The notes under the pieces were generated by a model, which did no database searches, was not told the origin of the DNA, and was given only the letters and a program-made list of their open reading frames with translations. Positions 3,671-63,145 of a DNA stretch of 64,000 nucleotides are shown here, one piece after another. The DNA is from Diplonema papillatum. Lineage: Eukaryota; Euglenozoa; Diplonemea; Diplonemida; Diplonemidae. Within the stretch, counting starts at the first letter, position 1. Each line of letters begins with the position of its first letter. The translations under genes and the position numbers were made by a program. Location: NCBI GenBank assembly GCA_030068145.1, contig JAPJBO010000318.1, forward strand, positions 62,001 to 126,000. The letters run 5' to 3'.

Positions 3671-4092
3671 AATGCACTGACAGCAAAACGACTAACGATG
3701 CAGTGCCTGACAGAAAAACTAGGCATCCGGTGTAGTAAACTTTTAGTAGAAGATACACGACAACACTGGACCACGGCACACAAAAAGATCAACAGCTGCT
3801 GCTGCTGCTGTGCACAGATACGAGACTCTTTCCCAGCACCCAGTCCCCAGGGTTCTCCCACGGATATAAGAGGACAAAGTCAATGCACTGACAGCAAAAC
3901 GACTAACGATGCAGTGCCTGACAGAAAAACTAGGCATCCGGTGTAGTAGACTTTTAGTAGAAGATACACGACAACACTGGACCACGGCACACAAAAAGAT
4001 CAACAGCTGCTGCTGCTGCTGTGCACAGATACGAGACTCTTTCCCAGCACCCAGTCCCCAGGGTTCTCCCACGGATATAAGAGGACAAAGTG
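3671..4092 (+). repeat. 211-bp direct tandem duplication
   Basis: Positions 3671-3881 are repeated almost base for base at 3882-4092. Each copy contains a short GCT run (CAGCTGCTGCTGCTGCTG) and ends with CGGATATAAGAGGACAAAGT. The near-identity implies a recent duplication. Minus-strand frames with a QQQQQ run span both copies, but nothing identifies a protein. Confidence 0.9.
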
Positions 4093-4790
4093 TTGGGATA
4101 TAAGGGAATATTCCACCTTATATATTTTTCTTCTTTTGTGTTTCCGACGATCCCGTGGACGGTGGGACGTACAGATTGGTGTCTTTCGACCTTTTGTTTG
4201 TTTTGTGAGGTTCAGCTTGGCGCGTGTGGTCGGTGGGCTTTTTTTTTTTTTTTTTCGCTGGCTATATATATAATTCAAACGGGCCGCTGAGCTCAAAACC
4301 CGGTTCCCATGCCTGTGGTTTGGGCACGTGCTGGCGCCTTGCAGCGCATCCCAGCCGTGGTTTTCGGGTGGGATCGATCGCGATCAGAGGGTCGCTATGG
4401 GCGGGCTCGGTTTCGCTTTGCGGCTTCAAAAAAAATTGTGCGGCGCTTTCTGTTGTTTGTGCGCACTAGCGGAACGCTCCCGCTTTGGTAAGTCGGAAAA
4501 GTTGCATGCAGTACGCAGCCAGCTACGAATTTCCTGTGGTAACAGTACTAACAATATACGCAAGAAAGGGACAATCGGCAAGCGTGCCGTGTTGTAACGC
4601 CCTTCACAGGTGGACACACTACACGCGCACAACCAGAAATATGTGGATTGGAAAGTCGACATCTTTAAAGTCTCTACTTCGTACCGAAAAATACATTTAT
4701 TGAGAGGTACGGGTAGTAAATTGAGTCGAGCTATTGTCCGGGTGCGTACAACGATTCTGTTGTGCACAAGGCATCCTATATAGTCAAGCT
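4093..4790. other. No recognisable gene; dispersed repeat copies
   Basis: Contains the GTGTCTTTCGACCTTTTGTT repeat (about 4180, also near 9993 and 23081) and the TTGTTTGTGCGCACTAGCGG repeat (about 4453). A T tract lies at 4240-4255. Confidence 0.4.
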
Positions 4791-5062
4791 ACTCTGTCCG
4801 AGAGTGAAGACAGGTCCAAGTTGTGCGCGGCACTAGTGCGTCACCATGGTCTACTACACAAGCGACTCTGTCCGAGTGTGAAGACAGGTTCTACTTGTGC
4901 GCGGCACTAGTGCATTACGATGGCCTACTGGACAAGCGACTCTATCCGGAGGTTCCAGTTGTGCACGCACTAAGGCGTCACGATGGCCTATTAGACAAGC
5001 TACTCCGCCCGAGTGTGACGACAGGTTCTAGTTGTTGTCTAGTTGCGTCACCAAGGCCTCCT
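4791..5062 (+). repeat. Minisatellite, four units of about 70-76 bp
   Basis: Units begin ACTCTGTCCGAG and carry AAGACAGGTTC, GTTGTGCGCGGCACTAGTGC, CATGG and ACAAGCG. The third unit has a short internal deletion. Confidence 0.75.
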
Positions 5063-5325
5063 TGTTTGTACTTCTCGGAGGCCGTCTGTGTCCTTCCGTC
5101 TTGCACGTGCAAATCCGACAGAGCCCTGACCTGAACGCCTCAACCTCAAAATCTTCTCCTGACTCTCGTTTGGTGCCACCTTGAGGGCCCAAACGCAGCT
5201 GGCCACTAACCGCCCCACCGTCCCTCGCTATTCCAGAGTGAAAGTCCGCTTGGAACTGCGGGGGTTCAGCGTCTCCGGGGTTGTAACGTACGCGAGCCCA
5301 TTCACCTTGCGGCGAAAACCTTCCA
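5063..5325. other. Intergenic; one diverged dispersed-repeat copy
   Basis: 5233-5275 holds a diverged copy of the AGAGTGAAAGTTCGCTTGAA ... TCTCCG dispersed repeat seen at about 12335, 21646, 47550 and 52011. It runs into the palindrome array. Confidence 0.5.
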
Positions 5326-5604
5326 GTTCAGCGTCACTTAGAGTGAGCATTCAGCGTCACTTAGAGTGAGATCTCACTCTAAGTGACGCTGAACTGCAAA
5401 AGTCCTGGTTCAGCGTCACTTAGAGTGAGATCTCACTCTAAGTGACGATGAACCACCAAAATGCGGTTCAGCGTCACTTAGAGTGAGCATTCAGCGTCAC
5501 TTACAGTGAGCATTCAGCGTCACTTAGAGTGACATCTCACTCTAAGTGACGCTGAACCGCAAAAAACCTGGTTCAGCGTCACTTAGAGTGAGATCTCACT
5601 CTCG
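5326..5604. repeat. Array of palindromes built from one 20-bp unit in both orientations
   Basis: The unit TTCAGCGTCACTTAGAGTGA occurs seven times forward. It occurs three times in full and once in part as its reverse complement. Adjacent forward and reverse units form long palindromes: 5350-5393 is a perfect 44-nt palindrome centred on AGATCT, 5407-5454 has one mismatched pair, and 5513-5558 and 5571-5602 are further examples. Such sequence could extrude as cruciforms. It lies 366 bp beyond the 3' end of the reverse-transcriptase ORF; no functional link is shown. Confidence 0.95.
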
Positions 5605-5969
5605 ATGCAGACTATCGCCACAGATTCTTTTTGCATTCTAACCCAAACGATTACTCGGCGATCACACTTTTACATGCAGCGTATTTTTAGACTGTTTTTC
5701 TAAAAAAAAAAAAAAAAAACAGAAGCGTGGCGGCAAATATCTGAGACCTGTTTCGAGTTTTAAGAAGAAGCCGATACTATTTTTGCATTGTCATTTCTTT
5801 TCTACACGGACTCCGTTCACGAGTCAACTCGATAACGTATTATTTTTTCCCCCCACTTTCTTTTTTTTTTTCCGGCGGACAACTTTGTGTCGGATATTCC
5901 TCTCACTGCCCACCCAGGGGTGGTTGGTTCCGTAGGGCAGGTTTTGTCTATCGGCGGGAGTTGATTGGG
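5605..5969. other. AT-rich 3' flank of the RT-USP ORF
   Basis: Contains an A18 tract at about 5702-5719 (plus strand) and a T10-rich stretch at about 5861-5872, which reads as an A tract on the strand of the RT ORF. The second could be a remnant of a 3' tail, but no target-site duplication was found. Confidence 0.4.
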
Positions 5970-8051
5970 TTACCGTCTGGCTCCTAATTTAAAGGGGGGA
6001 GCAAAAAAAAGTTTGTTTTTCACTTTCTTTATCAGATCCTCTACTGACTCGGTGTAGGGCTTCTCCCTGTTTTTGAGTTCAACCATCAGGAACGGTTCTG
6101 ACGCCGGCAGTGCTCGTGAAGACTCTTCGCATGTTGTACACGTTGTCAGTCGGGAGTATGTCACCGTCGCTTGGTCGTCGTCGTCGTCCGTTACGCAAGA
6201 GCGTATCCACGTCAACAGTTCGTGCACGTCCCGCTGCGCGGAGTCGTCTGTCGTCGTGTCGAAGACAAGGCTTCGTAGTGTGGCCATTGTTCCGTGGATG
6301 TCACGGCCTGCGTCGAAATCCGTGAACAGCTGCTGCACCTTCAACTGGTTGGTGTTCGGGTGCGAAAGGCCTGCGAGCTGCAGTCGGAAGGAGGTCCTTC
6401 GCGCCAGGAACTGAACGCTGGCGGCAAAGAAACATGAGTTGCGGATGTTCCTTATGCCGTTGCGTCCAGGTGGGTTTGTTGGCTTCGTCGCAAGGTGCGT
6501 AGTGCTGGTGGGTTCGGGTTTGTGTGGCGACGTTTTCTGCGGCGAGGTTCTCCCGGGTGGAGGTCTCGGTGAAACATCGGGTGGTTGCGGTGAACGGATG
6601 CTGATGTACGGTTTCTCTTCGTTGGTCGAGCGTCCTTCGTCAAAGGCCTTTCCGACGAAGTGGTAGAACCGTGATAGCACTCGCGCATCCAGTTCGTACT
6701 TCCCGTACGTTTGCGCAACGAACGTGTCGAACGTGTGTCGGAGTTCCCGTCCAGAGAATCCACGGTTGCGGAGTCGGTAGTGGACCTTCATGATCTCGAC
6801 TTTCAGATCTGGCATATTGTTACATATGCGCGCTGCTCGAATCAGAGCGCCTTTGAAGATCGAGGTTCCGGTGTTCCGTGGTACCGTTGATTCGACGTGC
6901 GTGTACTTGATCGGATACCAGGGGAATTCCTCACCCTTGTCCAGGACGGACATCCGAATGAAGTCCGTTTTGGTATCCCTCTCCATCCGGATCCGCATCC
7001 CCAAAAAGACTACGTCGTCGACACCTTTCGATGTTTCTCCGTACTCCATGCCGTAGACAGATTCCGGCGGTGGTCGAACGCCCCAGGTCAAGAAGTCATC
7101 AATGAATCTGACGCTGTCGGCGTGATTCCTGGCTTCTTCTTGCAATCCGTTTGCGACCAGGCCGTCGATGTACTGCTTTTCGCACCAGTAGCAGTATAGG
7201 TTGGCGAGGTCCGGGCTTGCATTGCCGCCCATGGGGATTCCTGTGACCTGCTGGTAGCACTTTCCGCCGTTCGTGACGAAGGTGTTACCGACAATGAATT
7301 CGACCAGTTCCCGAATCTCTGCGACACTGTAGGAGGTTGTGTTCGATGCGTCTGGTTTCCCAAACTCGAAACGGTGCTTGGCTCGTTGGGCTTCCACGTT
7401 CGCTCCTTTTTCGGACGTCATGTACTCGAAAGCCTCCGCAACTGCAGACATGACATAGTCAACGATCTGATTCTGCGGAATCTTTGTGTACATTTCTTTG
7501 AAATCGAAAGTTCGTGGCGTCTTTTTGCGAAGTCGTGCGTAGTTCGTCTTTACGTGCACTGCTACGTCATCGACCGACTCGACGACGAAGAAACGACGTA
7601 TCCCCGTTTGCGAAAACGTCGCTTCGTCCTTGCTTCGGAGCGTGGCTAGAACCAGCTTCAGCAAACCGGAGGCTTCTTGGTGGGCAGGGGTAGTTGATGC
7701 ACGTGTCTTCACTCGTTTCTTGTCGCGGCCTTTTTCGTCTCGGTCCTTCTGTTCGTTTTTCTTCTCAATGTTCCCTTTCTCCGACACGCCGGCAATGTAC
7801 CGCCTCCGTGGCTCGGGTTTATGGAGTTTCGGGATGCCGTAAAGGTACGGTAGGATGTTGGTGTGTGTGAATTGACGTGACTTGTTGAAGTCATGGTGTC
7901 GTTTGAGCACGTCTTCAATCGACTCGCCAACTTCCTGGTACGTTGAGCTCTCTTGTAACTCGCTCCGTAAAAGTTCCTTGTACTTTTCCTTGCAGATAAA
8001 CCCAAAGTCATGGGACGTCTTATCAACAGGGAGAAATACGAGGCGCGCCAC
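5970..8051 (-). CDS. Reverse transcriptase fused to a USP-like deubiquitinase domain
   Basis: An uninterrupted 693-codon frame. Residues 5-30 hold a pre-RT block with PVDK and FICK. IPKLHK is at 73-78. RT motif A, FDFKEMYTKIP, is at 182-192 (Asp183). GIPMGGNASPDLANLY is at 271-286, and the catalytic FIDD box is at 316-319. The MYTxIP, GxxMG and FIDD set resembles Penelope-like and related GIY-YIG-associated retroelements. A basic/acidic low-complexity insert lies at about 92-125. After a proline-rich linker (486-528), NGIRNIRNSCFFAASVQF (531-548) matches the USP cysteine box (Cys540), AQRDVHELL (605-613) matches the QQDxHEF box, and CTTC (638-641) matches the start of the zinc-binding region. 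The USP histidine box is absent, so the domain is truncated or continues in an unseen exon. There is no ATG at the 5' end: the frame opens with GTG after an in-frame TAA and an AG (AAACAG). It is head to head with the 8361-9527 ORF. Confidence 0.85.
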   Translation of the reverse strand: MARLVFLPVDKTSHDFGFICKEKYKELLRSELQESSTYQEVGESIEDVLKRHHDFNKSRQFTHTNILPYLYGIPKLHKPEPRRRYIAGVSEKGNIEKKNEQKDRDEKGRDKKRVKTRASTTPAHQEASGLLKLVLATLRSKDEATFSQTGIRRFFVVESVDDVAVHVKTNYARLRKKTPRTFDFKEMYTKIPQNQIVDYVMSAVAEAFEYMTSEKGANVEAQRAKHRFEFGKPDASNTTSYSVAEIRELVEFIVGNTFVTNGGKCYQQVTGIPMGGNASPDLANLYCYWCEKQYIDGLVANGLQEEARNHADSVRFIDDFLTWGVRPPPESVYGMEYGETSKGVDDVVFLGMRIRMERDTKTDFIRMSVLDKGEEFPWYPIKYTHVESTVPRNTGTSIFKGALIRAARICNNMPDLKVEIMKVHYRLRNRGFSGRELRHTFDTFVAQTYGKYELDARVLSRFYHFVGKAFDEGRSTNEEKPYISIRSPQPPDVSPRPPPGRTSPQKTSPHKPEPTSTTHLATKPTNPPGRNGIRNIRNSCFFAASVQFLARRTSFRLQLAGLSHPNTNQLKVQQLFTDFDAGRDIHGTMATLRSLVFDTTTDDSAQRDVHELLTWIRSCVTDDDDDQATVTYSRLTTCTTCEESSRALPASEPFLMVELKNREKPYTESVEDLIKKVKNKLFFAPPFKLGARR

Positions 8052-8360
8052 TGTTTATAGGCCTTTGTTTTATGTAATTTTAATTCATACCTTCCCTAGT
8101 GTCGCCTACCTAAAGGCCCCTTTTCCTAAAAGGCGGCACTAACACGGGAAGCCGTCGGTGAGGATGAGACATTCTCCATGCAAATACAGGGAACCCTATT
8201 GAGACCGTCTTCCCGCCTCGCGTTTTCAGGCAAAAAGGCGACACTGACAAGGGCTAAACGGAGGCGACACTAACACGGGGGGGTAGGTAAATCGTTAATT
8301 ATTTTCACTCAAATTTCGCAAAGCAAGCACTGGGAAAATCGGAACTCCAAGGGCAACCGT
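8052..8360. promoter_or_regulatory. Head-to-head junction between the two retroelement ORFs
   Basis: This 309-bp interval separates the 5' ends of the two divergent ORFs. It carries GTGTCGCC (about 8100) and, facing it, GGCGACACT twice (about 8238 and 8263), plus GCGGCACTAACACGGG. These look like short inverted and direct repeats. It could be a bidirectional promoter or filler at an inversion junction; the sequence alone does not decide. Confidence 0.4.
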
Positions 8361-9527
8361 GTGTCGCAACAATTGCGAAAGCGAGGCCGAAAGCTCTACG
8401 CGTGTCCGATACAGAATGTTCCGGAACGGCTGTACGTACAGCCCGCTGACTTCGCGCGCGTTGCTCTCCCTATCGAAGATTTCTGGATCAAGTGGCTAAA
8501 CCCGCCCTTGAACATGACGAATCGGCGCCACGGAGAGAGGGTCAACCGCAAGGCTGCAAAGAAGAAGAAGAGGCAACGTCCACCGCAACGCCTCCGCAAA
8601 CGACGCACCGACGGCAACGTCTGGCACCGCATGGTAAACGGTGAACTCCACATTGACACCTCCCCGGGCTTCTGTTCTGGGTTGAGGAAACAATTGGACC
8701 ACCTGCTGACACTCCCACAGGACCGGTTGGGAACATACGACATGGCAACATGGCACCCCAATCGCGCCCTACGCCTCCGCACGTGGCTGAGAACCTTCGT
8801 TCGAGGAAAGGACGTAACGGAAAAAGTACGTACCCTCGAGCGGCTCCTCAGTACGCGCATTCGCAACAGAACCGAGAAGCCGGCAGCCCCCCCACGACGA
8901 TATTTTAAGCTGACACACCATCACCCGGCACAAGACCGAACAGCAATAGCCGGCGTCTTGTCACGCGCACGGGTTCGCGAAACATGCCCCAACCCGGCCG
9001 TCCTCAAAAACCTCATGGTGAGCAACCGACTGAAGCCACCTCTGGTAACCCTCGTCAGCAACGTCACCGAAGTAAGTTACGAAGCGAACCAACCGACTAG
9101 CTCAAGCTCGGTTTGTCCATGCATGCAGCATCTAACACCACACCGCGCGGACCTTGGTGGACACGCTTTAGGACTTGCAACGGACCTGAAGACCGACGAA
9201 GCCCTCCTTTCGCTCTTTCGGAAAGGACGCAAGTACCGAGTCGCGAGTAGCCCGATGACGATGTACGACTCGATAAGGCACGACGTCGAGGAATTCGTGA
9301 ACTCGAGCTTCCCGAAATCGAGCGAGGAGGAGAAGACCAGATTTGCAACGACTCTGGTCGAAGAGTTCGACGCCGTCCTTGGAACGCTCAACGCACACAC
9401 CGACGAACCTCAACTCCGAGACGCCATACGAACCCTGAAAAAGCTCCAGGAGCGCCACACTGTGCACCGCACCGTGGGCCTGCAGCGCCGCCAAAGCGGC
9501 GCCGCCAAAAAGAAATTGATTCGTTGA
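8361..9527 (+). CDS. Probable amino-terminal half of a GIY-YIG-associated retroelement protein
   Basis: 388 codons without interruption. The open frame extends upstream to about 8274 without an ATG, so the 5' end is probably truncated or spliced. Residues 38-51 (IEDFWIKWLNPPLN) resemble the carboxyl end of GIY-YIG nucleases, with a catalytic-type Glu followed by WI..L.PPLN. The GIY and YIG strands themselves are not visible. A lysine/arginine-rich stretch lies at about 55-85. CPC at 252-254, then GGHALGLATDL and LFRKGRKYR, correspond by family pattern to the CxC...GH...TGDL...L..KG..FR block that immediately precedes the PVDK...FICK block in related animal proteins. Here that next block is on the opposite strand, at the start of the 5970-8051 ORF. 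The homologous part ends near QERH (about 9463), and about 20 further codons run to the stop. Confidence 0.65.
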   Translation: MSQQLRKRGRKLYACPIQNVPERLYVQPADFARVALPIEDFWIKWLNPPLNMTNRRHGERVNRKAAKKKKRQRPPQRLRKRRTDGNVWHRMVNGELHIDTSPGFCSGLRKQLDHLLTLPQDRLGTYDMATWHPNRALRLRTWLRTFVRGKDVTEKVRTLERLLSTRIRNRTEKPAAPPRRYFKLTHHHPAQDRTAIAGVLSRARVRETCPNPAVLKNLMVSNRLKPPLVTLVSNVTEVSYEANQPTSSSSVCPCMQHLTPHRADLGGHALGLATDLKTDEALLSLFRKGRKYRVASSPMTMYDSIRHDVEEFVNSSFPKSSEEEKTRFATTLVEEFDAVLGTLNAHTDEPQLRDAIRTLKKLQERHTVHRTVGLQRRQSGAAKKKLIR

Positions 9528-11360
9528 TCCACAAAGAGTGGGTGCCGAGAATAATAATCAGGATTTATAAATTAGCGGCCGATAAATTATAAGCCACGCG
9601 TATTACTGGCCTATAAATCAGAGGCTGGACGGTACCGTTTCTATATTTCTTTTTTTCTTTCGCGCTTCTCGTTCTTGGCAGCCCCCTCTCGCCAGCGAGA
9701 GGAGAGGAAAATACTCGATGGACCGCCTTGGGGCTGATTTCTAGCGTTATTTGTAAATTAGAAGGTAGGTACCGTAATTGGAATAATGTTGAACTGGATT
9801 AAAGCTGGAATGGGTAAATGACAGACCGGGTAAAACCTGGGACACCCGGGGGGGTGTCCCAGACACCCGGGGGGGTGTCCCAGGCAGTCACCTGCGTGAC
9901 TGCACCAGTCGTGCTCCTGCAGCCTCCTATGACAGCGGCATCTAGGGGTCGAGCCGAGTATTGAGCACCCGAAGGCGCGGGTAAGCACCAGGTGTCTTTC
10001 GACCTTTTGTTTGTTTTGTGAGGTTCAGCTACATGTGATCGGTGATCGGTGGGCGGGGGGCATGGATAAGAATAAGAAGCTATACTTTTTTTCTGTTGCT
10101 TGTGTCCTCGTTTTTCTCGTGTGCCCTCTTCCTCTTTTTCCTTTCCTCCCTTGTTTTCGCTGGGTTGAAGTGTTTATGCGTTGGAACAGGCTCTGTTTTA
10201 GAGTGAAAGTTCGCTTGTTTTGGTAGAGGGAAGGGTTAGCTTGAAACACCAAGGGGGGGGCGTGGAGGAGGGATGCATTGAACAGACACGAAGGTGGCCG
10301 TGGGTGGGGGCCATGAAACGGATACGGAAAGGAAGAGAGAAGAGATGCTTTTCGCGCCCGGTGCGGTCAGTCTCCGCCACTCCTCGACTCGGTCTGTAAT
10401 GCAGCACACGCGCAAGGTTTGTTTAGAACGTACAACGCCCAGTATGACCCGACTGCCGCTTGCCCTTGCTCCAGTACAGCATATCGGGGGCCGCCGCGCA
10501 AGCTTTATTTAGAGTTATAGTTCGCTTGGGAATCCAGGATTTTAGAGTCTCCGCTGGTGGGTTTGGGGGGGCATGCATGGCTTGTTTCGTGTACACTTTA
10601 CTTGCTTGCTTTGGGCAAGTCACCGCAGAGCCAAAACCTAGATTTTCGGCTGAAACCGGCGTTTTTTGCTTGGTCAAGGCAAAGTGCTAAAGTCCCCTGT
10701 CTTCAAAATATTACAAGTTTTTTTTTTCCCTACCAAAAAGAATACTCGACGTAGCTGCGTCGACTCCGAATGGAAGGGAGGAAATATAGAGGTAAAAGGG
10801 GCAAATAGGTTCGTAACAATTTGCGACCGAGTGTATTTTTTAGAGTGAAACCCCCGCCCCGCCATCAGTGTGTTTTCTCGACGCTCGGTGGTTGCGGCCG
10901 ACTCTTCTTGCAAAGCGGTAGACCCCTCCTTAACATTGAGTTCATTTATGCACACGAACCACATCTCCTCAATAAGAAATGTACACCCCGTACATCCCGT
11001 TTCAAGTCACTGCACCCCGGACTCGCACTCCGGATTGCGGGAGTGGTTTTGCGGTCGTTTGTGCGGTCGGCCCCACTCCCTCAATGCGGGAGTGGGAAAT
11101 GCGGGAATGGCACTCCGTCAATTCGGGAGTGGCACTCCAAGAAGTGCTTTGACTTTAGTCTTGGCCCCCCACTTTCCTAGAGTGAAGGTTTCTTTTAAGA
11201 GCTGTATCGCTGTTGTGCAAAGGAGTCAGCAGGTTCTTCAATCTGAGCCGGCCACACCCCCTGCTGACAGACTGCTGGTAGACTGTGACAGGCAGCAGCA
11301 GGCACTTCGATGCACTTCCGGGAAACAGGGTGAAAGCCCACCAATAGACACGCGAGGGGA
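9528..11360. other. Gene-poor interval with dispersed repeats
   Basis: No gene is recognised. Dispersed repeats include 9765-9835 (again at 34558-34625, with GTAATTGGAATAATGTTGA), 9990-10050 (GTGTCTTTCGACCTTTTGTT family) and 10199-10222 plus 10507-10552 (AGAGTGAAAGTTCGCTTG family). 10745-10850 carries the GAATGGAAGGGAGGAAATA family. 11020-11135 is rich in GGGAGTGG and its complement. Confidence 0.45.
9838..9884. repeat. Two adjacent G/C-rich hairpins
   Basis: Two near-identical inverted repeats of the form GGGACACCC...GGGTGTCCC lie side by side. Stems of 8-9 bp would form stable hairpins. They follow a repeat (9765-9835) whose other copy at about 34558 lacks them. Confidence 0.75.
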
Positions 11361-27974: not shown

Positions 27975-30900
27975 CTAGAAAAGGAAGAGAAGAGTGGCAC
28001 TCCCTAAGTAGGGTATGAAACCTTTTTTTTTTTTTTTTTTGGCCTTCGCGAATATCTTTAACGGGGAAATTTGCACACCGGTTGTACCTTGGTTGGCGTC
28101 GATAGACCGTGGGGAGAGGAGGTTGCCGGATCGGGACCCCAGGACGACGGAGCTGCCGAGCCCCGTCACCGACGACAGCGTGGCGTTGAGGTTGAGCCCG
28201 TACACGTCGTCCTGCGGGCTGGTGGCCCGCGAGCTCGCGCCCTCCTGCAGACTCGCCAGGCTGCGCATGGTCCCGTCCAGGCACGGGGACCCTGGCCGGA
28301 TCAACGGATTGGGCGGCGGGTTGGGAGGCGGCTGGTCGGGAAATGACGAGGTTTGCGGGGTTTTCGCCGGGTGCTGCTGCTGGTTGTGCTGGTGGTGGGT
28401 TTGGCTGGCCTGCGGGGCGATTGGCTGGCTGGTTTTTTCGATGACGAGACCGAGGGTGTTGAGCAGGGCTTCCACCATGTGTTCGACGCGTTGTACGGTC
28501 TGCGAGGTGTTTTCGCAGCGGTCTTCGAGCCTCGAAAGTCGGGCCGTCAGCTCGAGGAAGGGTCGAGAGCCCCTTGCGATCGGCGCCGGGTGCAGCGTGA
28601 TGTCCGGCAGCTTCTGCCGGTAGCTTCCGGCGGTCGGCGTCGTCGCCTTCCGCCGCAGCGGCGACGAGCCGGGACGGTCCTCACCGTCGGTGCTCACGCT
28701 CTGCACGGAGTCGTGCCTCGATATCCTTTTGTCGGCGTATCCAGCTCCCGCCACCCCTCGCGACCCATCGCTGTTGAGATCCAACGCAAACGGAGTGTTC
28801 CCTGTGTGGCTAAGAACCGACCCACTCCCCCTCCCTTCCGAGTCGAGCGCCCCTACCTCCGGTGAGTCTGGCACGAAGGTAGGCGGCAGCAAAGTGAGGG
28901 CGACGACCCCCGTCGCCTGGAAGGAATCTTCTATCAGTTGCAGCATCTGGTGGCTGTCGACTTGCTCGTCTTCGATCGACGCGAGGTGCATCCCCGGGAC
29001 GATCCCGACGCGCGAGGCGGCGCTGTTGTCGTCGACCGCCGCGACGACAAAACCCTCGGAGGCCTCCTCCCACGAAATGCCCAAAAAATCGCTCGGTCCC
29101 GTCATTTCGAGCTTGAACACCGTGCCGTGGGTGCTCTGCTGGATCTGCCGCTTGACCATCTCCTCCTGCACCGCCTGCTTCATCGAAGAATACTTCCGTA
29201 TCAGCCCAAAGAAGTCGCCCTTGTCAAGGCGGAAGAGCTCACAGTACGTCAGCGTCGTGATGCTTGCGGTCCGCTTGCTCTCCGTCAGCAGCGCAATCTC
29301 GCCGAAAAACCCACCCGGTTTGATGACCCCCCACAGATCGCCATCCGGGCTGGTGACCTCAGCGAGGCCGTGGCCGAGGAAGAACATCTCCTTCCCGTCG
29401 TCGCCGGCTTCGATGACCCGCCGTTCCGGTTCCAAAACGAAGTTTTTCAGCGCGTTCGCGAGGCTGATGAGGCACTCGATCGGCTGGTGCTTGAACATCG
29501 GGACTTGGCTGATGAACTTCATTCGCACGAACAATCCGACGCGGTTGCGCATCACGCTCGGCAGCGACGACAAGACCTTCATAAACTCCCCACTCAAATC
29601 GCTGTGCAGCTGGTGGTACTGGAACGCGAGAACTTCGCACGCAAGCTGGTCCGGGATGTTGAACTTGTTGAGGACGCTGAGCGTCTCCTTCATCTTGTCA
29701 ACTCGCTCGCTCTCCACGTCGCCCTTCTGCATCCTCGACGAGATCTTCGAAATCACGATGCCGTTGACCACGACGCCGACGATGAACAAAAACGTCGCGA
29801 AAAGCTGCTCCACCCGGGTGTCTACCGGCACGTCTCCGTACCCAACCGTCGTGACGGTCATCACCGCCCAGTAGAGGGACTGCACATAGGAGTACTCTTT
29901 GTCGGTGGTACCTCGCACTCCTCCGATTTTGAGGAGGATCCAGCAGATGGTTATGAGGTTGATCGCGAGGGCGCAGTAAAAGACCAGGCGGAGCATCGGA
30001 ACCACGGAGTACTGGTACTTGACGGAGTGCGGGCCCAGCTTGACGGGGGTAACGACTTCGAAGAGTCGGCGAACCGCCAGCAGCTTGAGGAGGCGCAGGT
30101 GGGAGAAGCTGAGGTACAGCCACCCACCCAAAAACCCTTCTCCGAACACCAGCAGCAGGACCAAATCCACCGGCATTGCCGCCAGCACGTCGGTTGCCAA
30201 CCCGGTCTGCGCGTACTTCGCCCGGATCCTCCGCTTGTCCTCCACCAGCGTGCCGGAAGCGCTGTCCAGGTACCCCGTGTTCAGCCGAACCGCGATGTCG
30301 GCTATAAAAATGGTCGACGCAAAGACTTCGAGGACGGTCTGCCCGATTTCGCCGGCGATCAGACCGCTGCGGCTCATCGCGTACTGGGCCGGGATGAAGA
30401 TACCGTAGTACAGGCAACACGCCATCAGGAGCGTGTCCCAGTACCACAGCTTCATGTCGTCGGGTTGGATGCATTCCGACCGCAGCGCTGTGCGTGGGGT
30501 AAAAATATCTTGTTTTTCTGTTGTTTATACAATTTCTGCACGTACATAGAGTTGCTTCGTAACCTTTCACGGGGGGCGACTATAGATGGCCTGGCCACGT
30601 AGGACCGTAATGTTTACAGAGTGAAAGTTCGCTTCTTCAGAAAACACGAATTTTCTAAGATCTCAAGCGTACCGCAAGAGTATAGATGGTAGGACCGTAG
30701 TTAACACACAGTGAAACTTCGCTTTTTCAGAAAAACACGAATCTTCTATAAGATCTGCTAAACGTACAGCATGAGTAACTTCGTGACGCCAACCCGGGTT
30801 GGGCGTACTTCGCCCGGATCCTCCGCTCGTCCTCCACCAGCGTGCCGGAAGCGCTGTCCAGGTACCCCGTGTTCAGCCGAACCGCGATGTCGGCTATAAA

Positions 30901-46603: not shown

Positions 46604-49835
<3,232 letters not shown>

Positions 49836-49885
49836 TTTCGCAGATCCCCTGACGGCCTGACAGGCCTGCTGGGGTTGCTATCTTG

Positions 49886-55131: not shown

Positions 55132-56232
55132 CTACGCACTCTTTTTCGAAACGTTCGTCAGAGACGCGCCGATGCAGGAGTAGATGGTGGTCGGAGAGTA
55201 CGAGTACGTCGTGTCCTTCTTGGTCGAAAACGAGATCGAGAAGAAGTCACGGCACAGCGTCAGCCCCGCGTCACCGGCCGGCGTGAGGGGGCCCAACCTG
55301 ACACGGGTGACGTTGTCCGGCGCGATGGCAGCCAGGAGCAGGCAGAACAGCTGGTGGTGCGAGTCGACGTTGCCGCCCTTCTTCACCTGGTCGAGAAGCA
55401 GTCCAGCTGCGGCGAGGCCGATGTCCTCCGCCGTCACCTGCTTCTGCATCGCGTTCTGGTCGCAGTGCAGCTCTTCCGACAGCACGGCGGTGGCGGAGGT
55501 GGATTCCGATACGAGGGTCAGCCCATAGCCAGAGGACAACCCAGCCTCCTCCCCCGTGAAATGATCGGCTGCGATGAAGATATCTGGCAGCAGCTTCAGC
55601 AGGAGCCCCTTCGCGGTCGAGATGGCCCTGTGCGCCAAATCGGGCGACGTTCTGCAGGAGAACGCGACGCCGCGAATTCGCTTGATTTTCCCGCGCTCCG
55701 TCAGGTCGGTGCAGGTCAACTTCCGGACGTTTTCGCTGGTGATCACGACTTCGCCACCCCCCCTCGGCTCGACGCCTCTCTTCCTGATGCGGATGGCAGC
55801 TTCCACGCCGAAGTGCTTGAGCAGCGGGATGGTCACCGTACGAAGGACATCCACGCCTAAATCGGTCTGGTTGTTGCTAACGCCGTGCAGCGTCGCGCTC
55901 AGCGGCTTCTTCGCGAACGGCGCCAGCAGCAGCAAGGGCTCTGCGCAGTACCCCACGCCCCTGGCCAGCGTGCAGTCGTGCACGACGGCCCCGCCGACGA
56001 TGACGCCCGGCTTGAACTTCACCCGGGTGCCCGTCTCGTTGATCTCGATGACCGTCCCGTTGGTGACCTTGTCCATGAGCCGCAAGAAGTTCACTTCGTG
56101 GTCCTTCAACCCGACAGTCTCGCCCTCGGTCCGGATGTTCTCGAAGTTCACGGCCTTCCCGGACAGCAGCGAGCAAACGATCGTGTGCCGGAAGTACCCT
56201 GTCCCGTTCACCGAATACGTCGTTTTAGACAT
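55132..56232 (-). CDS. RCL1: RNA 3'-terminal phosphate cyclase-like protein (U3 snoRNP-associated pre-rRNA processing factor)
   Basis: 366 aa from ATG at 56232 (MSKTTYSVNGTGYFRHTIVC), single exon, close to the usual 370-residue length of RCL1. RCL1 acts in the nucleolus with BMS1 in early 18S rRNA maturation and has the RtcA fold without cyclase activity. Family features seen: FRHTIVCSLLSGKAV near the start, FKPGVIVGG at about 72-80, KRGVEPRGGGEV at about 163-174 (the family's RG.PPGGGG-type block) and the C-terminal IYSCIGASLTNVSK matching the usual end of the family. The catalytic His of true cyclases is not evident, which fits RCL1 rather than RTCA. An upstream in-frame GTG would add three residues and is unlikely. 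The 3' end is repeated three times downstream and an internal piece upstream. Confidence 0.95.
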   Translation of the reverse strand: MSKTTYSVNGTGYFRHTIVCSLLSGKAVNFENIRTEGETVGLKDHEVNFLRLMDKVTNGTVIEINETGTRVKFKPGVIVGGAVVHDCTLARGVGYCAEPLLLLAPFAKKPLSATLHGVSNNQTDLGVDVLRTVTIPLLKHFGVEAAIRIRKRGVEPRGGGEVVITSENVRKLTCTDLTERGKIKRIRGVAFSCRTSPDLAHRAISTAKGLLLKLLPDIFIAADHFTGEEAGLSSGYGLTLVSESTSATAVLSEELHCDQNAMQKQVTAEDIGLAAAGLLLDQVKKGGNVDSHHQLFCLLLAAIAPDNVTRVRLGPLTPAGDAGLTLCRDFFSISFSTKKDTTYSYSPTTIYSCIGASLTNVSKKSA

Positions 56233-56595
56233 CTTCGGCACGTTTTCGCCTTCGTTTTTAGCGTTTTTCTCTGATGATGTGACTGATGGGGAGGACCTGG
56301 GGGAAAAGAAATCTTAGCATTGAAATGTTTTTGGCAGCAATGCCTATAGTTCGATGTCATAATCAAGTCTTCTTGGGAGCTGACGAGGCTGGATTTGTGG
56401 GATCATCAAGTTCTTCATGAAAAGAAGTTAACACTTGATGAAGTGACGCTCTATACCAAGGTTTTAATCAGTAGTCAGACTGGGAAGTAGCTGCCAGCAT
56501 GAGCTTCTCCGTCCACAGATGCTTTTGGGAGTTTTTCGGCTTTCGACTTGCTCGAGAGAAGTAGTTCGACTGGGAAGCAGCTGGAATTATAGTCG
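56233..56595. other. Upstream region of RCL1
   Basis: No further gene. TCAGTAGTCAGACTGGGAAG and AGTAGTTCGACTGGGAAGCA (about 56467 and 56561) are a short direct repeat. Confidence 0.4.
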
Positions 56596-61907: not shown

Positions 61908-63145
61908 TTCAATACAGCTTATCGTTGTTCTTGCTCTGTTTCTGGATCGTAGTCTGCCCTGTTTCTGGGTTCAATACAGCTTATCGTTGTTCTTGCTCTG
62001 TTTCTGGATCGTAGTCTGCCCTGTTTCTGGGTTCAATACAGCTTATCGTTGTTCTTGCTCTGTTTCTGGATCGTAGTCTGCCCTGTTTCTGGGTTCAATA
62101 CAGCTTATCGTTGTTCTTGCTCTGTTTCTGGATCGTAGTCTGCCCTGTTTCTGGGTTCAATACAGCTTATCGTTGTTCTTGCTCTGTTTCTGGATCGTAG
62201 TCTGCCCTGTTTCTGGGTTCAATACAGCTTATCGTTGTTCTTGCTCTGTTTCTGGATCGTAGTCTGCCCTGTTTCTGGGTTCAATACAGCTTATCGTTGT
62301 TCTTGCTCTGTTTCTGGATCGTAGTCTGCCCTGTTTCTGGGTTCAATACAGCTTATCGTTGTTCTTGCTCTGTTTCTGGATCGTAGTCTGCCCTGTTTCT
62401 GGGTTCAATACAGCTTATCGTTGTTCTTGCTCTGTTTCTGGATCGTAGTCTGCCCTGTTTCTGGGTTCAATACAGCTTATCGTTGTTCTTGCTCTGTTTC
62501 TGGATCGTAGTCTGCCCTGTTTCTGGGTTCAATACAGCTTATCGTTGTTCTTGCTCTGTTTCTGGATCGTAGTCTGCCCTGTTTCTGGGTTCAATACAGC
62601 TTATCGTTGTTCTTGCTCTGTTTCTGGATCGTAGTCTGCCCTGTTTCTGGGTTCAATACAGCTTATCGTTGTTCTTGCTCTGTTTCTGGATCGTAGTCTG
62701 CCCTGTTTCTGGGTTCAATACAGCTTATCGTTGTTCTTGCTCTGTTTCTGGATCGTAGTCTGCCCTGTTTCTGGGTTCAATACAGCTTATCGTTGTTCTT
62801 GCTCTGTTTCTGGATCGTAGTCTGCCCTGTTTCTGGGTTCAATACAGCTTATCGTTGTTCTTGCTCTGTTTCTGGATCGTAGTCTGCCCTGTTTCTGGGT
62901 TCAATACAGCTTATCGTTGTTCTTGCTCTGTTTCTGGATCGTAGTCTGCCCTGTTTCTGGGTTCAATACAGCTTATCGTTGTTCTTGCTCTGTTTCTGGA
63001 TCGTAGTCTTGCACTGTTTCTGGGTTCAATACAGCTTATCGTTGTTCGTGCTCTGTTTCTGACTGTTTCTGGGTTCAATACAGCTTGTCGTTGTTCTTGC
63101 TCTGTTTCTGGATAGTAGTCTTTGCACTGTTTCTCGGTTCAATAC
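61908..63145 (+). repeat. 62-bp satellite, about 20 units
   Basis: Period 62 bp from 61908 to 63025 (TTCAATACAGCTTATCGTTG, TTCTTGCTCTGTTTCTGGAT, CGTAGTCTGCCCTGTTTCTG). The internal units are essentially identical. The last two are shortened and substituted, so the array decays towards its right end. Confidence 0.98.

Follow-up and report, generated by a model that had tools for sequence, protein, structure and literature searches.

What is a deubiquitinase domain doing at the end of a reverse transcriptase (RT)? The question is raised by P0001, an open reading frame (ORF) in a 64,000-nucleotide stretch of the genome of Diplonema papillatum, a marine diplonemid flagellate. The stretch, referred to here at its full length as the window, covers positions 62,001 to 126,000 of contig JAPJBO010000318.1 in the 271-Mb assembly GCA_030068145.1. 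A preliminary description of the window had proposed that the frame fuses an RT to a deubiquitinase of the ubiquitin-specific protease (USP) type, and this is supported by relatives that show the same order with a complete USP domain. By its sequence features, the element to which the frame belongs is an endonuclease-bearing Penelope-like retrotransposon of D. papillatum, and the copy in the window is young but dead. That the element is Penelope-like and carries a functional USP, leaving aside what the USP acts on, we consider very probable.

The uninterrupted frame was found exactly where it had been placed, on the minus strand, which the preliminary description had not stated (Table 1). The RT motifs FDFKEMYTKIP, GIPMGG, and FIDD, the proline-rich linker, and the USP motifs NSCFFAASVQF (with Cys540, codon 6432-6434), QRDVHELL, and CTTC that had been read from it are all present in P0001. 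The nearest proteins are DIPPA_ gene models of D. papillatum, showing 91 to 98% identity over the matched parts. Only residues ∼4 to 680 of the frame (window 8042-6012) belong to the element, and the last 13 to 14 codons have no counterpart in the related protein P0003. Homology to P0003 stops at 6012, and the window USP lacks the second CxxC (zinc) pair, the His box, and the Asp. The two profile checks that had been suggested came out only in part as anticipated. The tail did match the USP profile, UCH, but below cut-off (20.2 bits versus 23.9; E 0.0073 with Pfam when the whole frame was used), and residues 1 to 480 matched RVT_1, likewise below cut-off (E values in Table 1). The suggested search of related sequences for the RT-USP order did find it, with UCH well above cut-off in complete domains. 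A phage collection and viral contigs gave no match, and NCBIfam gave none above cut-off.

Intact copies are present in the same genome. A search with P0003 scored at least 52 matches among 1573 first-look candidates. In 30 of the 52, spread over many contigs, a frame of 1400 codons or more without a stop spans P0003 from residue 1 to residue 869 or beyond. One frame in these copies encodes, in order, a variable N terminus, a GIY-YIG domain, an N domain, the RT, a proline-rich linker of ∼50 residues, and a complete USP. Measured from the first ATG, the ORFs are 1503 amino acids long in subfamily A, 1437 and 1420 in subfamily B (the window's own), 1422 and 1412 in subfamily C, and 1408 in subfamily D. 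The Pfam cut-offs for GIY-YIG (22.6 bits) and UCH (23.9 bits) are both passed by the copies at L026 (1503 amino acids; GIY-YIG at residues 296 to 383, 26.5 bits; UCH, 58.7 bits) and L013 (1437 amino acids; GIY-YIG at residues 230 to 317, 25.9 bits; UCH, 59.7 bits). The window retains only the C-terminal part of the GIY-YIG domain, and this remnant has no Pfam match. A second family, represented by protein P0064, has the same domain order followed by a C-terminal Cys/His cluster that looks zinc-finger-like by eye. In that family, 24 of the 34 match rows run the full length with no stop, and the other ten include cases in which two rows are pieces of one copy. Its GIY-YIG domain scores at the cut-off in P0064, L031 (22.9 bits), and L032 (22.4 bits); UCH is matched by P0064 at E 1.3e-20, and L031, from a subfamily at 67% identity, shows the same domain order.

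The evidence for the identity of the USP comes from these complete domains. UCH was matched at E 3.6e-15 to 5.8e-23 by P0003, P0009, P0013, P0016, P0064, P0071, L013, L026, L031, and L032, and at E 1.6e-9 by P0067; intact copies score 58.7 to 82.2 bits. A profile of four tails (P0003, P0009, P0013, and P0016) matched 97 distinct chains in the PDB at E ≤1e-3, the top 60 of which are all USP-kind hydrolases or USP18, some as engineered fusions. The best match was USP12 (E 1.8e-15), then USP46 and USP18. Single tails also matched solved USPs, with P0064 finding USP12 (E 1.2e-9) and P0071 finding USP15 (E 6.8e-5). The catalytic Cys, His, and Asp or Asn are present in all seven complete USPs examined and in four subfamily representatives. 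Two CxxC pairs occur in P0003, P0009, P0013, and P0071; one of the two Cys pairs is CxC in P0016 and P0064, and P0067 has only one pair within the domain. The zinc Cys pairs are not strictly required in all USPs. The residue following the catalytic His is Tyr in all seven complete domains and Phe in L031, and an aromatic residue at this position marks deubiquitinases and other Gly-Gly-cleaving proteases, according to passages of PMC7391069. The USP of the intact copies is predicted to be catalytically active, cleaving isopeptide bonds after Gly-Gly while tethered to the retrotransposition complex.

The fusion extends beyond the gene models closest to the window. Protein searches gave 80 proteins in total, and UCH is above cut-off in P0003, P0009, P0013, P0016, P0064, P0067, and P0071; P0015 keeps the Cys box only and is below it. 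The RT alignment excluded near-duplicate D. papillatum models (P0004-P0008 and P0010-P0012) plus P0026, P0028, and P0069, and the RT tree was built from 60 of its 69 rows, with P0014, P0063, P0020, and P0021 dropped as incomplete or chimeric models and P0078-P0082 for short sequences or very long branches. Seven of the eight USP rows, P0015 counted, fall in one clade of ten (support 100/100) that also holds P0019 and the transcript fragments P0070 and P0072. A wider clade of 14 (100/100, inner order unresolved) adds P0017, P0065, P0066, and P0018. One of these, P0017, has a Josephin domain at residues 649 to 775 (41.9 bits; cut-off 26), a region for which a single-sequence search of the PDB returned nothing at E ≤0.01; in P0066 and P0018, Pfam lists nothing C-terminal to the RT. 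The eighth USP row, P0071 (UCH E 2.9e-18), stands far from the main USP clade, and a single clade of all eight was rejected by the approximately unbiased (AU) test (p 5.8e-44), which followed a quick 65-row tree and used a group defined by domain, not by the tree. In a tree of the USPs themselves, to which 12 host USPs were added (high-scoring genome UCH matches taken as host, which may include mobile ones), the nine element USPs other than P0071 group together with moderate support (85/83), L033 lying in their midst, and P0071 lies elsewhere on a long branch with weak support. One USP clade of all ten element rows was rejected (AU p 1.5e-4), a result that reflects both P0071 and L033. The placement of P0071 and the Josephin domain of P0017 suggest repeated capture; at least two captures of a USP and one of a Josephin domain would be the simplest reading, and loss and exchange may be alternatives to it.

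Three observations on individual relatives may be added. L033 (C9, ∼544800-546900) encodes a metallo-beta-lactamase fused to a USP that is 51 to 55% identical to that of the second element family, with which it nests in the USP tree; it may represent a host gene akin to the donor, a domesticated gene, or another mobile protein. By eye, P0017 (843 amino acids, from a JGI contig) has a C-terminal Cys-rich cluster after the RT. A Ulp1-like (CE-clan) protease in P0065 was considered on the basis of a His...Gln...Cys pattern seen by eye, and received no support from Pfam or the PDB.

The Penelope-like assignment draws on the remainder of the element. P0001 contains conserved RT motifs, and homologous relatives pass RVT_1, for example, P0031 (34.3 bits), which the protein search with P0001 found at E 6.4e-29. 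When 14 loci were compared with themselves, 12 showed direct repeats or tandem copies at element spacing. Direct repeats of 383 to 436 bp, 99 to 100% identical and 5.7 to 5.85 kb apart, occur at L015, L019, L022, L023, and L030, repeats of other lengths at L013, L016, L018, L021, and L029, and tandem copies at L024 (C510) and L027 (C2819). Such repeats and tandem copies fit the pseudo-long terminal repeats (pseudo-LTRs) of Penelope-like elements.

Runs of C or G stand at or near the 5' ends of the copies. All eight copies sampled (L030, L023, L022, L021, L015, L029, L019, and L018) have a run of at least five in the interval between 40 bp upstream and 10 bp downstream of the end, and in six the run stands directly at the T-run with which the element starts; as background, a run of at least five ending within 3 bp upstream is found for ∼1.2% of window positions. 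An insertion preference for homopolymer C/G is likely.

Comparison of intact subfamilies indicates clear constraint on the USP. Ratios of nonsynonymous to synonymous substitution (dN/dS), obtained by the Nei-Gojobori method for the pairs A-B, A-C, A-D, B-C, B-D, and C-D, were 0.25, 0.11, 0.11, 0.12, 0.15, and 0.09 for the USP, values that are rough in the five pairs in which USP dS exceeds 1. In the same order, they were 0.12, 0.06, 0.07, 0.07, 0.08, and 0.05 for the RT and 0.38, 0.32, 0.64, 0.36, 0.37, and 0.23 for the linker. One pair from the second family gave 0.13 for the USP (again rough, with dS above 1), 0.04 for the RT, and 0.60 for the linker. These ratios point to purifying selection on the USP, though it evolves faster than the RT. 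USP dS is comparable to RT dS, which indicates that the two domains have been passed on together from the time the subfamilies diverged. In A-B, the sole unsaturated pair (USP dS 0.23), the USP ratio is twice that of the RT, yet still well below 1. Within subfamilies A and B there are too few changes for a test (in A1-A2, the USP has 2 nonsynonymous and 0 synonymous).

These limits on the ratios weigh against a Penelope-like element with a functional USP, and so do several other observations. The RT of the family is below the RVT_1 cut-off (14.0 bits in L026 versus 29.6), RVT_1 is not listed at E ≤0.1 in L013, L031, and L032, and no PDB chain reached E ≤0.01 with an RT profile built from 52 relatives. 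With the RT below the Pfam cut-off and no solved RT matched, the Penelope-like assignment rests on the relatives, the GIY-YIG domain, and the repeat structure. With regard to that structure, no element-spaced direct repeat was present in the stretch compared at two of the 14 loci (L026 and L028). No target-site duplication was found in eight copies when exact repeats of at least 8 bp were sought at the ends, where only C-tracts matched in L021 and L019; such duplications are frequent, though not universal, on insertion of Penelope-like elements. Rfam gave no hammerhead ribozyme in window 4000-11000 or in five loci. With regard to the USP, P0019 has none although it sits inside the USP clade, and several D. 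papillatum models (P0004-P0008) end inside the domain.

In the window, the element is not only truncated but rearranged. The two pieces that lie in opposite orientations there (Table 1) adjoin each other in the intact copy L013 of the same genome, and the 5' part is therefore inverted relative to the 3' part of one element. At the protein level, the inverted part matches P0014 residues 253 to 633 at 98%. The window copy begins inside the GIY-YIG domain and ends inside the USP, where the L013 frame continues to 7081; it is dead, and its closeness to L013 (99.65 to 99.80%) marks it as young. The plus-strand ORF was considered as a separate element, a reading rejected since its sequence and 8043-6013 adjoin in L013. 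An intron in place of the GIY-YIG truncation was also rejected: tblastn placed residues 1 to 252 of P0014 nowhere in the window at E ≤1e-3, a threshold that a very short exon could escape. Twin priming is a known way to an inversion during insertion, and the inversion in the window may have arisen in this manner or later. Internal initiation of reverse transcription could account for the 3' truncation, by analogy with that reported for an Anolis Penelope element in passages of PMC11167929; Penelope elements of Adineta also include inverted structures, according to passages of PMC3846280.

Table 1. Parts of the element copy and reading frames at the locus, in window coordinates
Feature	Position	Strand	Basis or remark
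Reported frame P0001	5970..8051	-	693 codons, stop-free
Frame end with no clear homology to the element	5970..6011	-	Comparison with P0003
Truncated USP, ∼residues 531-680 of P0001	6012..6461	-	Cys box, QRDVHELL, first CxxC; UCH E 4.9e-4
Proline-rich linker, ∼residues 481-530	6462..6611	-	Alignment to intact subfamilies; highest-dN segment
RT region, ∼residues 4-480	6612..8042	-	Aligns to P0003 and other RT relatives; RVT_1 E 0.032
Element 3' part: RT, linker, N-terminal ∼150 USP residues	6013..8043	-	99.80% over 2031 nt to L013 4669-6699
278-bp filler between the oppositely oriented parts	8044..8321	.	Inverted repeat near 8096-8273
Frame P0002, carrying the inverted 5' part	8274..9527	+	Open frame, 417 codons
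Element 5' part, inverted: C-terminal GIY-YIG part and N domain	8322..9453	+	99.65% over 1132 nt to L013 3536-4667

The surroundings of the copy have features of their own. Within the filler, 8096-8273 has imperfect inverted ends of the TTAGTGTCGCC type and resembles a small non-autonomous transposon; ends of this type have four matches within one mismatch across the window, all in the filler, where 0.8 would be expected. A dense palindromic repeat array built on TTCAGCGTCACTTAGAGTGAGATCTCACTCTAAGTGACGCTGAA occupies 5321-5602, ∼400 bp past the point at which the element is cut off; Rfam matches to microRNA families at 5326-5602 are under gathering scores, arise from the palindromic repeat, and were rejected. 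Farther along the minus strand, judging from translations by eye, long frames at 27975-30524 and 46604-49877 resemble two related ion channels with a cyclic-nucleotide-binding-like part, and a 393-codon frame at 55132-56313 resembles an RNA 3'-terminal phosphate cyclase-like protein.

The element USPs appear to make up a large share of the USP matches of this genome. A genome search with UCH gave at least 149 matches, all above cut-off (149 scored of 935 candidates), in which host USP genes match exon by exon, so that row counts are not gene counts. Three scores recur, 85.3 bits in 43 rows, 76.5 in 41, and 85.9 in 11, together 95 of the 149 listed rows. One representative of each of the first two scores (L031 and L032, respectively) was found to be a GIY-YIG-RT-USP element, and 20 of the 41 rows at 76.5 bits fall inside P0064 matches. 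Copies of the P0003 family score ∼60 bits, under the lowest row among the UCH matches listed. By these counts, the elements seem to account for most scored USP matches in the genome. Moreover, P0009 is annotated as ubiquitin carboxyl-terminal hydrolase 26 and P0064 as putative ubiquitin carboxyl-terminal hydrolase 16, so automatic annotation can count transposon proteins as host deubiquitinases. We give about an even chance to a broader picture, in which a deubiquitinase would be a standard, exchangeable part of one Penelope-like branch, the position behind the RT having been filled in different lineages by a Josephin domain or, on two or more occasions, by a USP; element USPs would outnumber those of the host in D. 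papillatum, and L033 would possibly reflect a transfer between element and host.

GIY-YIG nucleases nick DNA, RTs of this kind copy RNA at the nick, and USPs cleave after the Gly-Gly of ubiquitin. In the mechanism that we propose, the USP, on its flexible tether, would strip ubiquitin from proteins near the retrotransposition complex. Its main job would be to deubiquitinate the element's own protein or ribonucleoprotein particle, which might then escape the proteasome long enough to carry out reverse transcription. This protective role is the least certain part of the proposal, and we put it forward tentatively, at somewhat short of an even chance; that the main targets are host silencing or quality-control proteins is unlikely, and a main role of some other kind is slightly more so. 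A different version, in which the USP acts mainly on chromatin and, tethered to the nuclease and RT, deubiquitinates histones or repair factors at the insertion site, merits discussion even though we find it rather unlikely. The best solved relatives of the profile are USP12 and USP46, and chains of ubiquitin carboxyl-terminal hydrolase 8 were matched too; these enzymes act on histones, and a tethered USP would act where the nuclease cuts. However, sequence similarity to USP12 and USP46 does not predict the substrate, Pfam lists no chromatin-reader domain in L026, L013, L031, and L032 at E ≤0.1, and the USP of the second family and the Josephin-bearing relative would need to share the same target.

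Other explanations concern whether the domain works on ubiquitin, or works at all. Processing of the element's own polyprotein, or removal of a ubiquitin-like modifier other than ubiquitin, is improbable. The aromatic gatekeeper residue, which in passages of PMC7391069 is also attributed to proteases for other Gly-Gly-ending modifiers, would allow the latter; polyprotein processing is unsupported because its site would be expected in the linker, which has no conserved Gly-Gly, the Gly-Gly conserved in the four subfamily representatives being confined to three places in the GIY-YIG and RT cores. It is highly improbable that the USP was picked up by chance and persists as a functionless passenger, even though the window copy lacks its C-terminal half, P0004-P0008 stop within it, and P0019 has none. 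Selection largely refutes this explanation, with dN/dS at 0.09 to 0.25 between intact subfamilies and dS comparable to that of the RT, and the catalytic residues are intact in every complete domain while the USP recurs in separate lineages. The weak Pfam scores on the window copy, taken alone, would fit a fusion that arose as an artefact of assembly or gene modelling, or by chance read-through. The preliminary description had named a tail with no significant USP match, or a read-through with no homologues fused to an RT, as what would overturn its proposal. Neither overturns it, and the artefact explanation is refuted, with next to no probability left to it: the same fusion recurs in the 30 intact genome matches, in the second family, and in the sequences P0013, P0016, P0067, and P0071 from other sources.

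Penelope-like elements with an N-terminal (permuted) GIY-YIG domain, under the names Naiad and Chlamys, were reportedly described by Craig et al. in 2021. The elements found here share with them an ORF in which GIY-YIG precedes the RT, as well as direct repeats and a tandem arrangement of copies, but differ in the C-terminal USP after a proline-rich linker and, in the second family, in the Cys/His cluster after the USP. The canonical Penelope/Poseidon elements presented in passages of PMC11167929 likewise have GIY-YIG and RT in one ORF and stand in tandem with pseudo-LTRs; their nuclease is C terminal, however, and those passages describe no deubiquitinase; the lack of an Rfam hammerhead match in the elements found here is a further difference. 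Capture of a ubiquitin-related protease class by a transposon has a parallel in the OTU-like protease of Helentrons (sections of PMC6431247), although that is another protease family on a DNA transposon, whereas here a USP, and once a Josephin domain, is carried by a retroelement. The D. papillatum genome paper (PMC10161547) mentions ∼2500 retroelement-type gene models, and neither Penelope nor ubiquitin appears in its main text. Among the open-access papers listed by searches aimed at a deubiquitinase on a retroelement, no title or beginning of an abstract described a USP or other deubiquitinase of this kind, and a mention in Craig et al. 2021 is possible. Compared with USPs (peptidase C19) such as USP12 and USP46, the domain has the same Cys, His, and Asp boxes, zinc-type Cys pairs, and aromatic residue after the His; unlike them, it is part of a retrotransposon protein and, at ∼276 residues, is somewhat shorter than the matched stretch of USP12.

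Retroelements rely on the ubiquitin systems of their hosts. With a conserved USP of its own attached to RT and nuclease, an element would offer a direct way to ask which ubiquitination step is limiting for retrotransposition, and the recurrence of the domain suggests that ubiquitin hydrolases can be recurrent retroelement cargo.

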